Source of the DNA: Pocillopora verrucosa
Lineage: Eukaryota > Cnidaria > Anthozoa > Scleractinia > Pocilloporidae
DNA length: 64,000 nt
Assembly (NCBI RefSeq): GCF_036669915.1
Contig: NC_089313.1
Location: 16,941,075-17,005,074 of the forward strand
Reading direction: 5' to 3'
Shown: positions 41,733 through 52,887 of the stretch, in pieces
Numbering within the stretch: the stretch's first letter is position 1
Layout: each line of letters opens with the position of its first letter
Translations under genes and position numbers: made by a program
Notes under the pieces: generated by a model
What the model saw: only the letters and a program-made list of their open reading frames with translations
What the model was told of the DNA's origin: nothing
The model's database searches: none

Positions 41733-44700
41733 CTATCCTTGGTCCGATGTGTAGCTATCTTCGTGCAATTTGTTGTAAGGCAGTTCATTCTCCGACAGAT
41801 TCGAGCTCGAATCTGTTGAAGTGCTGGAATCATCTGTTGATGAATCAGTGGAAGGGCGTTTCTGAAGAACTTGGGAATCTTGAGGAAGATCGCGTAGATT
41901 CACATATTGGATCTGTCCATCGTTTTTCACCAAAAGAGGCGCGATGTCATCATGGACCGAAGCTTTAGCCAGGTCTTCATCTGCATTAGAATCGTAGTCA
42001 TCTTCGCATTTACATTCTCCGTCCTCATCCTGAATCAGCTCAAATTCTCGACAGATTATACCAGATATTGAATTGCCACTCTGTTTACTCGTTAAGTCTT
42101 CAAGCTTAGATTCAGTTAACAAATCGGATTCAATCTCGCTGACAGAATTTCCAGTCGCTGACAAATCCGCCCCACTTAGGACCGGGTTGGCTTCCACACC
42201 CTGACGTTCATTATTAAAGCACTCCTCGATGTCTCTTTCATGTCTATTATCTATCATTACTTCAGGCTGTACACCGTCTCCCTGGTCAATATTCTTAACA
42301 TCTGCTGTAAATGTGTCCTTCCCCACATATTCTCTGACATCAACCCCAAGTGGGCAAGTATTCTCCTTATTGGTCAAGATGGTGGTGTCTGTTCGCTTTC
42401 TATGGACTTGCTTGGGTGGTGGAGGAAGTTTTAGAGGAAAACCTTGGTCTTTGGCTGCAGTGATAATGTCGACTGCGTCGGAAAAAATCTGAAGAGGAGG
42501 AAATAGATTCTCTTGATCATTAGTTTTGGAATCCTGAGTTTTATTCTTCGCATCTGGGGAAATCTTGGTCGAGGTATTTTCAAACTTCGAACTGCCTTCA
42601 GAGGACGATTCACTTTCAGTGTCCATCTCAAAAATTAAGCACTCTTGGCTTGAATTGAATTTTGTCCACTTGCTCTGAACAGTCAAATGTTGGTATGTAT
42701 CCGTTATATTTCCTGAGGTGAGCGAAGTATGTCCTGCGAGATCAGTTTCTGTAGCCTCCTCCTTCGGATGAGATGTCACAATGTTCTGTTGATGAGGGCC
42801 TTCGTCAGGAGCGACCAAAGTTTCTTTACAATAGGGCTGCTCAACCTGTCGGGGAGAATTATCTGATGTGGGCGAGATGTGTGATAAATTCCTTCTTTCC
42901 GATGAAATCGTGTCCGGTTCTTCGGCTTTAAACTGCTCTCGGTCAATGAGCGTTTCTGTTTGCTGCCAGGAAGGAAGGACCTGTTCTTTTTGTGCTAGAG
43001 ATTCATCATGAAGCTGAAGTAGATTTTGCGACTCTACTGGAATACCTTCAGGAGATGGCTGAAATGGGTTGTTTTCGGAAATCTTCGTGTACGCTATTTT
43101 ATCTGTTTCCAAGAATAAGTTTTCTGCAGTCAAGAATGAGTTTGTAAGTTTTTCCACTGAACTTTGATCAGTAAGAACGCCAGATATTTGCACTTCACCG
43201 GATTCTGTTACAGATTCTGATAGTTCTTGCAATTCGGCTGGGTTTGCGGGATCGGAAAATGTCTCTGGTTGTTGAATTTTTACTGATTCAGGCTGACAGT
43301 AATTATGCTCTTTTCCTGGTTGTATCTCTGTTGTGCTCACTGGATTTTGTTGGTTTAAGTTTGGATCCATCTTGTCAAAGTGCTGGTCAGCTTCCTGTGT
43401 AACCACATCCTGGTAGAGATTCTCTTCTTTTGGCACCACTTCTTCCGAAGATGGAGGGTAATTCGTAGCTGACGTTCGACAAGGGTCGTCTGCTTGGGTG
43501 GTTTGAAGCCTCGTTATATGGAAATGATGATGACATTGACTTTGCCTGGAGGCATCCGTTCCTTGGAAATGCAAATACGGAATTTTTGGTTCACAAATAG
43601 GTGATGGTCCTGGGTGGCCAACTATTATATCCACAGGAGAGTTTGTGTGACCTAGCTGACCTTCATTTGTCATAACACCAACAACCACATCAATAGGTTC
43701 ACTAACATTGTGTAAGTCACTTAATGATCTAGCGCTATTCGAAATAGAAGAGTTGGTCCCGCTTGAAAGTTTGGAGGAGAAAGCTTCCGTGGACTCACGC
43801 ATATTCATAAGACTCAATTCGTTAAGGACAATTTCTTGTCCTACTTCAGAGAAGGAAGAAGATCTGCTGCGATTTCTGCTAGAATATTCTCGAGAAGGTG
43901 TAGGGCTAAAAATTTCATTGATGTCTTTCCAGCTATCTAAATCGTGTTCCCTAGCTTGCCTCGTCTCGCAGATTTTTGAGCTCGATGGATTCGCTACAGA
44001 TACATCATTTGGTGCACAGATTTCTGAAAAGCTCTGGGCTGGCGTACGTGGTGTGTGGATAGGTGTCGGTGCTGTTGTCAGAAAGGCACTTGGAGGTGTT
44101 GGATGCGGAGTTGGCGCAGGAGTGTTGCGAGAGCTTGACCACGCACGAACCGGTGTAAGTGGTACGCTGTGACTTGCAGAATAGAGAGGTGTTAACGGCA
44201 AACTCTGAAGAGCTGGAGAGAAAACAGGCCTTTGGTCGGGTTGATCATCATCCCCATTTTCTTCTTGCTGAGTTTGGCGAGCGGCAACAGCTTCAAGGCG
44301 CTCACTTAACTCGTTAAGCTGATCAATAATGGCAAGATGTAATTTTTCTTTTCTTTGAGCAGGGGGTGAGTCTTTGGGAGAAACATCTTTGATTACTTCT
44401 TCTACAAAGAGTACAGGATCATCGGTATCTGATTTTATGTCAGAAATTGCAGCATTTCTTCCGACCTCGTTTGCCTCAGTTTCCAGAACCAGTAGCTGTC
44501 CTGTGCGTGGAATTGTAGGGGGTGGCGGGATACGAACAAGTTGGAACACCTCTCTACCACCCTCCGACTCAGTTGAACTGTTGCCTTCTAAGGGAGTCCT
44601 TGTACACACTTTAACATACTCTGATGCTACTCCGTCACCAACTGTTCCTTCGATATTTGGTACGAACACAATCTCAATATCATCATCAACCACGCTCGAA

Positions 44701-47700
44701 ATGTTGTCAGTATCATGATGCTCGTCTGTTAGAGAGTCCACGAGGCCAATTCTCCTTTTGCGATTGCTTTCTGGAGGGGGAGGAAGCTTAACTAATTCCA
44801 CATCAATCTCTGCGCTCACATCATTAGAAATCGATGCATCTGGTTGAATTCCCCCCACATTTTCGAGCTCCACTTGCATGGGTTGAATACTCAGAGAAAC
44901 ATTGGTGACATCACTGAGAGGCCTCTCAAGGTCCCCAGCTTCCAAACCAATCTGCATGTTACTAGTTGGGTCAACTGTAGCGTCATGCTTATCGGAAGCC
45001 ACCGAGAGGTTTTCCAGGTCATCGCCCTCTCTCATCATCAAGTCGTCATCTGGTCTTTGAATTCCAGCTTCCTCAGGATTTGGCTTTACGACATTTGCAT
45101 TTACTAGATTAGTAATGGACTCACTTGGCTCTGCTAAATCATTTGTTTCTCCCACAGGAACTTGTGAACCCGAAGTTGAACCAAGATTCCTTGGCATTTC
45201 TGAAAATGATAGCATGGAACCAGATACCACATTGCCTGTTCGTGATTGAGAAGACAAGGTTATTTTTGAGATACCACTTATGTCTGATCTGTTTCGTTGG
45301 TGGGCCGTCACTCCACCTGTGCTCGATAAATTGTCGACAGCTCTTCGATACACATTTTCCATCTCTGTCTTACTTGCCATCTGTCCTTGAAAAGGCTCTA
45401 AAAAAGTCGCTATTGAATCTTCTCGGCGGAAACCATCGAATCTTTGGTACGAATGTATTTCTACAGGATCAAGGTTAGAGAGTGACACACCAGGCTCGGT
45501 AACAAACATCCCACTCAGAGTGTCCACCACACTCGCAGAATGAATGCTAAGCGATGGATCGTACACTTCTCTTCTTCCGTGTTCCTCCTTGTGTGTCAAA
45601 TCTGGACGAAGCTTCTGAACAAAATAGATCAGGCTTACACCAACGAGAACAGAACAAGATGAAACAAAGAATGCGGTTGTAAAGGAATCCGTGGACTTGT
45701 AAAGTTCTCCTGTAAATTTAAAATGCGAGTAAACAAGGGATGTTTAGAGAAAGAGTTTTTCACCATGGTTCCTAACAACGGAATCTTACTCAGAGTTTTC
45801 TTTCCCAAGACGCATATCAGTTATGGTGATCTCCTCATGTAGGTAAAAGAACAAGCACACACATGTGGCAATTGGAAAGTTTTCCCATAGATTGGCACAA
45901 TTAATTTTTAATGATGTGGATTGAAAAATTCCAAGAGTAGTGGGGCCTAGGATCGGGCTGAAATAACGAGAAGAAAAACACATAACACATTTTACATATT
46001 TTTAAGATAAATGATATCATTTGATCGTTCCAAAAAAACAATTAGTGCGCGGTTGTTTGAAAGAGTCGACCAAGTAATAACGATGTGCCTGAAGCACGTA
46101 GTCTCACCTAAAACGGGAGGTCCCAGGGTTAAAGGAAATGCCACCAAGCCGTACTGGATGCCAAGTGCTTTGGCCATTAGTTCCTTTCCAACAATGTCCT
46201 GGGTGATAAGTGGAACCGTCACTACAAAACATCCATCAAAGAATCCAGCAACCAGTGCGTACGCGAGCAAACCGTGATAACTCCGTGCAGCGGTGACACA
46301 CATAGAGGACACACTCAAAACGGTGGCGGAAATGACAAAAATATACAACCGTCTGACGCGCGGGAGATCCGCAAGACGGCCGCATAGGAGTTTACCAAAT
46401 ATTGCTGATATTGAGAGGTAGCCTAGCAAAAGAGCCCCTTGGGAGACAGGGATACCATGTGACAAAGCCATCCGGACCTACGATAAAAACAAGAAAATAT
46501 CGATGTAACTATACATCCGGACGATCGTTTGGGTAACCAGTGCAGATTGGCTACAATTAGCTGCGGTAACTGATAAATCTCTTTACCAGTTTCTGAAAAT
46601 TTTACTGTTCTGTGCAATTGATGAACTTTACTCACCAAGTACGTGTATGGAAAGAAGTAGGCGAACAGAATAAAGGACAATGACACCAACCACATGGGAA
46701 AAGCTCGGTCTCTCCATGGCCGAGGATCAATAAGACCTTTCAACCGGAATGACAGACTTCGTCTTTCGAATGGCAAATACTCGACTGGCGGTGGGATATA
46801 AGCGCACCCGCACAAGAACGTCAAGGCGGAAAATACGCTCAATACACGCATTCCCCCGCGCCAGCCGTACTTTTCGTCAAGTTCCTGCAACATCACGTTG
46901 AAGATAAGCGTTCCAAATCCGGCGCCGGTCATGGTAATCCCATTAGCAAGAGAAACGTTCCTATTAAAGTAAAACCTTAGGACGAGCAGCCCAGAAAAGA
47001 ACAAGAAGCTGCCCCCAGTTCCCCACAAAACGCCAAATGTAAAGTACATGGTGGAGATATTCGATGCAAATGAGGTCACCAGTAAAGAAAAGGTAGTCAA
47101 GACGCTTCCAGCGCACGCCATGACGCGGCATCCAAAATGTTCACAGAGGGCCGTAGTGATGGGTCCAATGACGAAGAGGAATCCATAACCCAAGGAGCCC
47201 ACCCACGCTGTTGACAAATTGGACCAAAAAGATTCTGTTATTATGTTTAGCGAAACAAGGTATAACTTAGGCATCTTTTGGAATAAATGTAGATGGTTTG
47301 GACTTAACATCATTTCTTGTCACCTAGGAAATATTTCAGGATATCCATAGTTGATGTGTAAAGACTTCACGCAGATGCTTACCTAAAAGGTGCATAAATC
47401 GTGTAGACCTTTACACGCGCGAATTTTGTGCACTCGCTACAGGAATTAAAACTTGATTGTTAAACTGTATTATTAAAAATCACGATTGGTTTTTGTTCCT
47501 AGAGAATGTTTTGCTTTAGGAATGCACACGTGTACGACACACACTACTTTAACTTACTTAGTTTTTCTCAGCAAAACAGAATGAAATGACTAAGCTTGTT
47601 AAGACATCCTATAAAGTTAATATTTTTTCAGATTGTTTTCGTGAAAACATATATAGAATGTTGTGGTTTACACGACAAATGCGAGGTGAACTTTTAAAAG

Positions 47701-49288: not shown

Positions 49289-49462
49289 TAGGCTGATTTA
49301 GCAACAGGACGGGAACGTCAGTTGACGACGGGAAAGCGCGCGGAAAGGACTGAACACGACTTCCGGTGCTAAATTTGCCGCTCTGCCATTGGTCAAGCCA
49401 GTTGTTTGAGTTGCGCACGCCGTCGTCGACTGACGTTCCCGTTCTGTTGCTAAATCAGCCTA
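49289..49462. mobile_element. 174-bp MITE with about 42-bp terminal inverted repeats
   Basis: The left repeat TAGGCTGATTTAGCAACAGG runs on through GACGGGAACGTCAGTTGACG to 49331; the right copy (49420-49462) is its reverse complement with about two mismatches. The middle is unrelated to any coding sequence. Its right end supplies the stop codon of the TIR-SAM gene. Confidence 0.9.
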
Positions 49463-52400
49463 TTTTTGATTTAATCTCTGGTTCCTGGCGATTTGCACGT
49501 GCTCTATCACATGCGTATCACGTGGATTATGGCTCCCCGCGAATTTGCTCAAATGGCTTTCAACAGTACTCAGGTTCCTCTTAAACAAACTGTCATTACT
49601 CATATCAATACATTGAAGTGGTGCCAAAATCCTACGCACACGACCACCCTCGGGTGGCCATGCCAACCACTGAAGCATCACGGGAACGACCGGTTTGTTC
49701 ATTGATTCAGCCAGGCTGAGATCCTTTATGCAGTTTTCGGAGCAAACATACTTGGGTGTCACGCAACACACGACAGCTACAGCAGCCTTGATGTTTCGCT
49801 GAATCTGACTCTGTGAGTTCTCGTGGGTTGGTGATTTGCTCGCGGCGTGACGCTTGTTTGCGTTACTCACGTCCGTCCAGCACTGGAATCCGTGACTCTC
49901 TAAGAACTGGACAAGTACCTGTACTTTATTTTGTACATCCCAGTGGTAACTGAGGAAAAGGTTTGGACGTGGAGATGTGTCTTCCATCTCGACACTGCTC
50001 ATCTCTACGAGGGAAAACAGTTGATGGTCAGTGGCTAAGGTAGCCACGACAATATATTTTGAAGGTTATAGATTCTCCCGTTACTGTTTCCATGAACAAG
50101 ATTGAGCAAAGGGAGCACCATGGGGCTGGTGAATTTATTTTTCATTAAACAACGAATAACAAACTCAGAAAAATTATCCGAACACATTTACCTTTTCAAC
50201 TGGCAAATAATGAAAAAAAAAAGTTGAAAGCACTTTCCATTTTGATTTCTCCTGTCTTAATAACTACATAACTGTGCAACGTTTTCGATTTAAAAAAAAA
50301 CTACATTGTGTTACTCTCTTCGAGTCAATTTTCCTTCTATAACTAACGAGGGATTTTTATGACTTTAGGATGAACGAGAAGGTGTAGGAAGTTTTTATCA
50401 CCCACCAGGGACTGCTGCCATCACTCTTAGGGGTTTAAGACCCTCAAACATTCTATCCAAGAATTCCTGCTCCAAGATCACGGCAGGCATGTTGCGAAAA
50501 GGTTTTAAGCGGTACAACAGTATGGCAACACTATCTTCGTATAGATTATCCTGAAAATTCACTGCTGGGCAGCTTCCCAGGATGGCTTGTAGGTTGGGTC
50601 GAAGTTTATCCCACGAGTTGGCTGTCATAGCAACTAGAAGAGGTTTTCCTAACCAATCAGCAAAGAGGACCTCATTGTAGACAAACAGTGACGTAGCAGC
50701 TGCCGTGGAGAGGAGGACGATCACGTGAGAAGAGGAGGCCAAGTGTGGAGAGTTGACCTGTAGGAATTCTTCCCTGGATTGTCCGAGTCGCTCGTGTTTA
50801 AACACCTGAAAAAAATTATAAAGAAATTCGAGAAGTATTCGACGCATTTTGTCCATCATTCATTGCACTGACTTTGATTTAATGTCATCATAGTCTGCTT
50901 TCTAGGTAATAGCGATCCTCAAGCTATTGATATATGAATAATTTGAACCACTGTCTACCCATATGCTGGGCCCATTGTCTAATACGATAACATGGCTAAA
51001 ATACCAGGCGCGAATCAGTAAATTCGACTCCCCATTGTCAAATAAGCGCCGACGCTGAATAAGCACTGCACCGTGGACGCAAAAAGTTAATAAACGCAGC
51101 GACGATTGTAAGTAAGCTATTCCGAAAAAGTAAAGTTCATTCTTATATTCCACCCCTCCCGCCCCCAATACTACTCTAATACAGCGCAAGTGTGACCGTC
51201 ACGCGGTCACGCGTTCGCGAGAAGTACGAGGCTCCTTCTCATGCGAATCGATAAATGTCTGAATGCAAGATTTGATTTGTGTCATTAATTACATAAGCCA
51301 GTTGACACTTGATGAGAAAAGGTTTAGGTAAAACAACTTCTCTCCCACTGTCTCATCCCTGAGAGTTAGCAAGTGAACGTTAAATTTCGCTTCCGTTGTT
51401 CTGCGTTCGTGCAAAGAGGCATGCAAAGTTAAAATAATTGGCTTTGGTCTAACAGAACAAAAAAATAAATCAGTCTCTCGCTAATGGATAGAAAAACGAT
51501 ATTTGAACCCTCAGTTCAACAATCACAAATCCTTTGACATGTTAATTAACTTAACGTGCAACACAATAGCGTGACTCTTAAATCCGCTAATTGTACATTT
51601 CTAATTTACCTTGAGGTTTTTCTGCACCAAGTCCGCTCGAAGATTATGATAAAACCGAGCATCACTGGGATCGCAAATAACATATACAGAATCTTCTTTG
51701 ACTTTGCTCTTTTTGCACTTCAAATACCAATTTCCTTTGAGTTGATCTTGCTCCTCTTGAATTTTCCTGGCTTCTTGCAAAAGTTTCTTTCGAGCGACTC
51801 GACTGTCAATATTTAAATGGGTTTCCATGTCAGTTTCTTTTATGGAAACCAACAAGAAGCCGTCGATTTCGTTCTCTTCGAAGCTTAGAGCACAATGTGC
51901 TTGCATTTTAAACGAAGCAAGCCAGGCCTGTACATCGTGGATGTTCCACGAAGATACCGGTTTCTTTCGGTCTAATTTCAAAACGTCTGGTTCCCTTGGA
52001 GGAGTTGGAATGCGCAGGCCGAATAAGGGAGCATACTTCTCCAGGGCTTCGCTGAATTTGCCTACCACTACTGACGAAAGTTCAGCCACACTTGAAGCAG
52101 AGTATTTACTTAAATTAAGCGCTCGCTCCGCCAGTTGTTTGTACTCTTGTGGAAGCTTGTCAGACAGATTAATGCAGAATAATTTTACAGGCTTTTCAAC
52201 CTCTTCGTTTCCCTCTTTCTCCTCGTCCCGATTGAGTAATATCCGTCCTTCGTGACAACAAATCAACGAATTCAAGTAGGACTCAGATAAGAAAATAACA
52301 GCTGCACGGCACTTTTCGACAATCTCTAATCTCTGCTGATAGCAAGATGGACTCTCTATGGGCTGGCTGTCGTCTTTATCGAACCAAATATCATCGCAAA

Positions 52401-52887
52401 ATCCGATATTTTTCAGTTCTTTAGTGGTGTAGGAAATAAAGCGTTTTTCTAAGAAACTCGCCTCCGGCGCGTAAGATACAAATATCGCTCTCCTTTTTGC
52501 TCTTCGTGGACTGACTGATTTAGTTGGAGATGTTGCTTCGTTAGATCCCTCAGTCGAACTGGCGTTTTCAGAGATGCTATCCCTGCTATTTTCTTTGTCG
52601 TTAGGCAGCCCTTTAGGGACTTCGAGTTGCTCGTGCGTTGCATCAAGGTCTGTTTGTCCACTATCTATCCCATTGGCACCATTTTTGTTGACTATGTTGC
52701 GATTATTCTTTTCGCCTCTCTCTTCTTCTTCGCCGTTTTCTGCCGAATTTTCAGGGCCGTTCGATTTCAGGTCCTGTAATCCTGGCAGATTACGATTGTC
52801 AACATTACCGTCAGTTTTAACCTCATCAAGTTCGAGTGCTTCTTCACTCTCGTCCGTCGGCTCTCCAGGCGTTTTCTCCTCGTCCAT
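49460..52887 (-). CDS. Multi-TIR protein with architecture TIR-SAM-TIR-TIR
   Basis: Three minus-strand exons, 51610-52887, 50406-50805 and 49460-50004 (GT-AG introns, phases 0 and 1), give 740 residues. The start is a good Kozak ATG at 52887. An acidic disordered head (1-125) is followed by TIR 1 (about 133-290; RAIFVSYAPEASFLEKRF), SAM (about 311-378; VSSWNIHDVQAWLASF), TIR 2 (about 399-530; SVYVICDPSDARFYHNLR, HVIVLLSTAAATSLFVYNE) and TIR 3 (about 573-715; NLFLSYHWDVQNKVQVL, GFQCWTDV). TIR domains either scaffold innate-immune signalling or hydrolyse NAD+, as SARM1 does with its SAM-TIR pair. At the SARM1 catalytic-Glu position I read E213, E471 and D654 in TIR 1, 2 and 3. There is no ARM domain, signal peptide or membrane segment, so it is probably cytosolic. 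The exon 2/3 junction was chosen because only phase 1 joins the frames. Confidence 0.85.

Follow-up and report, generated by a model that had tools for sequence, protein, structure and literature searches.

A gene on the minus strand of the coral Pocillopora verrucosa is predicted to place three TIR domains around a single SAM domain in one polypeptide. It lies in a 64,000-nucleotide stretch of genomic DNA (the window), where three open exons, read together, would encode a soluble protein of about 740 residues with the order acidic tail-TIR1-SAM-TIR2-TIR3. Tentatively, with a probability of about 0.4, we read this as one three-exon gene for a TIR adaptor clustered through its SAM domain, and we infer an immune role for the predicted protein. 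This reading draws on the domain matches, on a SAM domain that, among solved structures, is nearest that of SARM1, on the ranks of the splice sites and on the absence of a second copy in the genome searched. It draws also on an Asp in TIR3 where all 32 reference TIRs have Glu, with Glu retained in TIR1 and TIR2, and on relatives of TIR3 that adjoin either Roc-COR-Death or ARM and SAM exons. Against it stand the weakness of TIR2 as a TIR domain, and an AATAAA and a top-scoring donor in intron 2 that a separate gene carrying exon 3 could use.

Gene model

Features of the predicted gene, in order of transcription (positions in the window)
Feature	Position	Strand	Content	Basis
Exon 1	51610..52887	-	residues 1-426; acidic low-complexity N-terminus (about 1-132), TIR1, SAM, start of TIR2	open frame from ATG
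TIR1	52018..52491	-	about residues 133-290	Pfam; profile versus shuffles
SAM domain	51760..51957	-	residues 311-376	Pfam SAM_2
TIR2, exon 1 part	51610..51693	-	residues 399-426	start of the piece with TIR_2 at 0.003
Exon 2	50406..50805	-	residues 427-559 and one base of 560; remainder of TIR2 (to about residue 530, 50494) and linker	
Acceptor and donor in intron 2	50192..50199	-	3rd-ranked acceptor (before 50199) and strong donor (after 50192), 8 nt apart	script
AATAAA in intron 2	50134..50139	-	possible poly(A) signal; single hexamer, weak	script
Exon 3, including stop	49460..50004	-	TIR3 and C-terminal tail	in frame with exon 2
TIR3	49592..49957	-	Pfam match, residues 576-697	TIR_2 3e-15 alone
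AATAAA	49147..49152	-	candidate poly(A) signal, about 308 nt 3' of the stop	script

In the list of open frames, the ATG at 52887 opens a minus-strand frame of 428 codons. An in-frame TAA starts 9 nt 5' of this ATG and no AG lies between the two, so the protein probably starts here; because of the same stop, ARM exons upstream of 52887, which were considered, are not favoured. The gene's stop codon ends at 49460 on the same strand, and the span 49460..52887 given by the original prediction is therefore exact.

Around the presumed junctions, 36 of the 1350 splice combinations tried left the frame open. The best signals among these 36 belong to 52887-51610 + 50805-50406 + 50004-49460: three open exons, with stop-free stretches of 426, 133 and 180 codons and joins in frame, that translate as 740 codons. 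Splice sites in 49.4-53.0 kb were scored with approximate animal weights taken from general knowledge. By this measure the exon 1 donor (AAG/GTAAAT) is joint 1st of 200 GTs and the exon 2 acceptor (TTTTTTTCAG/G) is 1st of 258 AGs; the exon 2 donor (CTG/GTGGGT) ranks 3rd of the 200 GTs, and the exon 3 acceptor (CCCTCGTAG/A) 10th of the 258 AGs.

Domain assignments

Over the whole 740-residue model, Pfam finds TIR_2 at 2e-25 in three stretches, together with SAM_2 (1.9e-11 at 311-376), SAM_1 (1.3e-8), TIR (1.3e-7) and ThsB_TIR (2.9e-4). Submitted alone, the SAM piece matches at 4.1e-13, and TIR3 clears the TIR_2 cut-off of 28 bits with ease (57.2 bits, 3e-15). TIR1 falls under that cut-off (25.9 bits, 1.5e-5) and lies just over the cut-off of 21.3 for TIR (21.5 bits, 2.2e-4). 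TIR2 is the weakest, with TIR_2 at 18.5 bits (0.003) against the same cut-off of 28.

A profile built from 32 TIRs (31 from the same genome and one piece of SARM1) ranks the domains alike, giving 51.9 bits to TIR3, 19.1 to TIR1 and 10.3 to TIR2. Among 4000 shuffles (2000 each from TIR1 and TIR2) the highest score on this profile was 10.5 bits, and among TIR2's own 2000 it was 9.8. When seven sequences made up the profile, 5 of 3000 shuffles outscored TIR1 and TIR2; with hhalign, 1 of 100 outscored TIR1, and likewise for TIR2. With phmmer and an E limit of 10, none of TIR1, TIR2 and TIR3 matched a TIR among solved structures. A genome-wide TIR_2 search recovers TIR3 (57.4 bits) and, below its cut-off, TIR1 (25.8 bits); TIR2, which is split by an intron, is absent from its matches. 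By profile, then, TIR1 and TIR3 are TIR domains, and TIR2 probably is one. Matches to bacterial-system profiles (NCBIfam FxsC at 0.0025 for TIR1; PADLOC SAVED_TIR at 1.6e-5 and ThsB at 4.5e-4 for TIR3) are best taken as general TIR likeness.

The order TIR-SAM-TIR-TIR put forward in the original prediction is upheld on the splice model, by three TIR_2 stretches and one SAM, with TIR2 (0.003 alone) as its weak member. Profiles support TIR1 and TIR3 as TIR domains, each of which passes a cut-off; residues 399-530 (TIR2), the third TIR_2 stretch of the whole protein, fall short of one when taken alone. Its other architectural statements hold: ARM/HEAT is not matched (Pfam, E up to 10), there is a single SAM stretch, and the three TIRs are different, TIR2 being 15% and TIR3 26% identical to TIR1.

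The catalytic-glutamate column and neighbouring motifs

The column was defined by the catalytic glutamate of SARM1, which we take to be Glu642. It holds Glu213 in TIR1 (52249-52251), Glu471 in TIR2 (50671-50673) and Asp654 in TIR3 (49721-49723); each of the 32 references has Glu there. These references comprise L001-L008, L038-L067, six relatives and the SARM1 piece, with identical sequences and two repeats dropped; the tally excludes the remaining TIR_2 places in the genome, and the excluded first TIR of L068 reads Gln by eye.

The notion that Glu in this column means an NADase was dropped. Glu does not mark NADases, because every reference has it, including four (L001, L003, L005 and L006) whose open frames, at 983-1004 codons, are of receptor-like length. 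Asp654 might still function in TIR3.

Other motifs vary among the three domains. TIR1 keeps a box 1 FVSY and a W-F-D stretch, both seen by eye; the profile alignment is without those columns. TIR2 has no Ser-Tyr in box 1; this weighs little, because Ser occupies that column in only 16 of the 32 references. In the BB-loop region, TIR3 has residues inserted at the place of the glycines seen in its relatives (7-sequence profile alignment).

Relatives in the same genome

No second copy of the gene was found in 353,415,432 bases on 52 contigs. At E up to 1, the genome search returned, besides the gene's own three exons, 15 matches, all on TIR3 or SAM. The genome has at least 71 places that match TIR_2, including two within this gene.

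The closest matches of TIR3 are two loci on contig C14, at 44% identity over 59 residues (L012/L027) and 40% over 58 (L013/L028). In L028, Pfam places Roc, COR-A (under cut-off) and Death upstream on the same strand as the TIR; L027 resembles it by eye, and the one frame scanned there gave no Pfam match. These loci share with our gene the TIRs closest to TIR3 found. They differ from it in their GTPase and Death domains (Pfam in L028, by eye in L027), in having no nearby SAM found, in keeping Glu, and in an intron within the TIR (L027 4956-6037, L028 4411-5079), whereas TIR3 lies within one exon. Since its closest relatives carry that intron, TIR3 may have lost one. Novel Gene 3 of sea anemones (PMC5094078) is comparable to these Roc-COR-Death-TIR loci.

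C4 holds further TIR3 relatives, one of which has a Death domain about 3.6 kb away. Others, on C2 and C3, adjoin ARM repeats with a SAM-like part downstream (on C2, Pfam SAM at 0.001 to 0.006, under cut-off; on C3 seen by eye, Pfam giving nothing on the piece scanned). Repeated genes on C2 near 17.99-18.01 Mb (L031 3025-5139 and L037 2522-4633) run ARM, TIR_2 and SAM-like C-terminal part, and L033-L035 (C3, 2.43-2.50 Mb) are probably of the same kind. They have the domain kinds of SARM1 in another order, with a TIR related to TIR3. L031 and L037 resemble the gene under study in combining TIR_2 with SAM, their TIR being 28% identical to TIR3 over 101 residues; they differ in having ARM repeats, one TIR, SAM in last position and a retained Glu.

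At L068 (1112-3070; C14, near 4.552 Mb) one TIR_2 is whole and another is divided between two frames; it is apparently a two-TIR gene, and in the catalytic column its second TIR reads Glu by eye. Frames of about 163-182 codons that encode a TIR form clusters on C13 (4.64-4.74 Mb, L042-L046) and C1 (14.3-14.9 Mb). The five C13 copies give an identical TIR, the mark of either recent expansions or assembly duplicates.

Elsewhere in the window, TIR3-like pieces at 21.7-21.8 kb (E 0.006) and 44.7-45.0 kb (E 0.077) were set aside: scans of the frames at these places returned no TIR, and MOZ_SAS below its cut-off. A 1336-codon open frame on the minus strand (41736-45743), which starts like the end of a transporter, lies downstream of MFS_1 exons and has no Pfam match over cut-off. 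It may be a transporter whose tail is very long, or a gene of its own.

Comparison with known systems

SARM1 (TIR-1) is an NAD+ hydrolase with the order ARM-SAM-SAM-TIR. Its SAM is the best solved relative of the one described here, at 2.7e-7 with the whole query and 3.9e-5 with the SAM stretch alone. Query residues 310-376 align with SARM1 361-426 of structure 6wpk, presumably the first SAM of SARM1. The two proteins are alike in carrying SAM and TIR in one chain. The query differs in having no ARM match, a single SAM, three TIRs that flank the SAM on both sides, and Asp654 in the Glu column of its C-terminal TIR. It is not a SARM1 orthologue, because ARM repeats are absent, SAM is single and TIRs stand on either side of it. 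A 103-residue piece of the SARM1 TIR found no match in the genome at E up to 1, in a search run without a positive control.

Other animals also join these domains. A TIR-SAM hybrid is named in amphioxus (PMC2575513). In sea anemones, PMC5094078 describes genes that carry TIR_2 once or twice, and others with Death and Roc-COR; SAM is among the domains in a figure legend of that paper, and a TIR-SAM gene may be drawn there. The likeness of these amphioxus and sea-anemone genes to ours, taken from text descriptions, is the joining of TIR with SAM. More than one TIR is found in mollusc Tolls with tandem TIRs (PMC4929906), in some cases in Novel Gene 2 of sea anemones, which has one or two TIR_2 (PMC5094078), and apparently in L068. 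Their settings differ: Toll or BTK-motif context for the mollusc Tolls and Novel Gene 2, the latter having TIR_2 followed by a BTK motif that Pfam does not find in our query; and, for L068, 3.5 kb in which no SAM was seen. Corals share "SARM-like" proteins, according to PMC10236652, and the gene under study could be one of them.

The string TIR-SAM-TIR was not found in the open-access literature searched, and an earlier description of a TIR-SAM-TIR-TIR gene may exist. To call the gene an undescribed system, as was originally suggested, overstates the case, because TIR_2 or TIR is combined with other domains in sea anemones (PMC5094078) and with SAM in amphioxus (PMC2575513), and because the same genome has ARM-TIR-SAM genes and an apparent two-TIR gene. 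On its sequence, the gene is an unusual arrangement of familiar domains, TIR-SAM genes being known elsewhere. A prokaryotic or viral origin was considered and rejected on scans by short exact peptides, which are sensitive to close relatives only: viral contigs gave no match, and of 52 stretches in a prokaryote collection that matched a peptide pattern, 0 encoded a relative.

One gene or two

The membership of exon 3 is read from splice signals, by which one gene is more likely than two. The rival model, which we hold to be unlikely, divides the locus into a TIR-SAM-TIR gene that ends just past exon 2 and an adjoining TIR-only gene whose coding sequence is exon 3 (MSSVEMED..., from the ATG at 50002); a non-coding first exon of that gene might lie inside intron 2. 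Several features suit it. A stop in the frame of exon 2 lies 5 nt beyond the donor, and an ATG lies 2 nt past the exon 3 acceptor. Intron 2 holds an AATAAA at 50139, which would favour two genes if weakly, and at 50192 a donor whose score equals the best (joint first) and which could close such a non-coding exon. Moreover, the open frames that hold many of the genome's TIR matches are about 160-185 codons long, and a TIR-only expansion in corals is reported (PMC10236652).

Against it, of the 3683 minus-strand stops in the window, 1.28% have, in the 15 nt before them, a donor whose score equals or exceeds that of exon 2; of 1059 ATGs, 5.38% are preceded within 15 nt by an acceptor that equals or exceeds that of exon 3. 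Allowing one third for frame, both sites would arise by chance at about 2e-4; if the exon 3 acceptor belongs to a separate gene, a use open to the rival, the figure is about 0.4% (1.28% x one third). Both estimates use the same general-knowledge splice weights. The genome matches of TIR3, too, fall outside the TIR-only clusters. As for the acceptor and donor at 50192-50199, the pair may be a micro-exon, the first exon of another transcript, or chance.

Possible functions

For the single-gene adaptor, self-association of SAM would cluster several chains, and clustering would bring their TIR domains into the contacts needed for TIR signalling. TIR3 would serve as a contact domain, being the best conserved of the three yet showing Asp in the Glu column and a changed BB-loop region. 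A structural part would fall to TIR2, which diverges most. TIR1, with FVSY, W-F-D and Glu213, would be the best candidate NADase.

It is also conceivable, if somewhat unlikely, that no TIR is enzymatic and that the chain only assembles or dampens TIR signalling, as a pure scaffold or decoy. The Asp in TIR3, the divergence of TIR1 and TIR2, and a Glu column that is non-diagnostic (32 of 32 references) would all accord with this, whereas TIR1 retains Glu213 and FVSY, and the SAM resembles that of an NADase, SARM1. In a further, improbable reading, the protein might be a SARM1-like effector that lacks ARM, in which SAM forms the oligomer, TIR1 cleaves NAD(P), TIR2 is a spacer and TIR3 a pseudo-enzyme; with Glu changed to Asp, TIR3 might bind nucleotide or recruit other TIRs. 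Were that so, enzyme and pseudo-enzyme would lie within one animal immune protein. A decaying or chance-assembled gene without function is very improbable: two of the three TIRs are divergent and no second copy was found, yet 740 codons run without stop or frameshift, and the intron 1 sites are strong.

If the gene encodes one protein and is conserved, then clustering, catalysis and TIR-TIR contact would reside on separate, individually mutable domains. With such a protein one could test cleanly to what extent TIR signalling needs enforced clustering, in an animal lineage rich in TIR_2 genes without assigned function.
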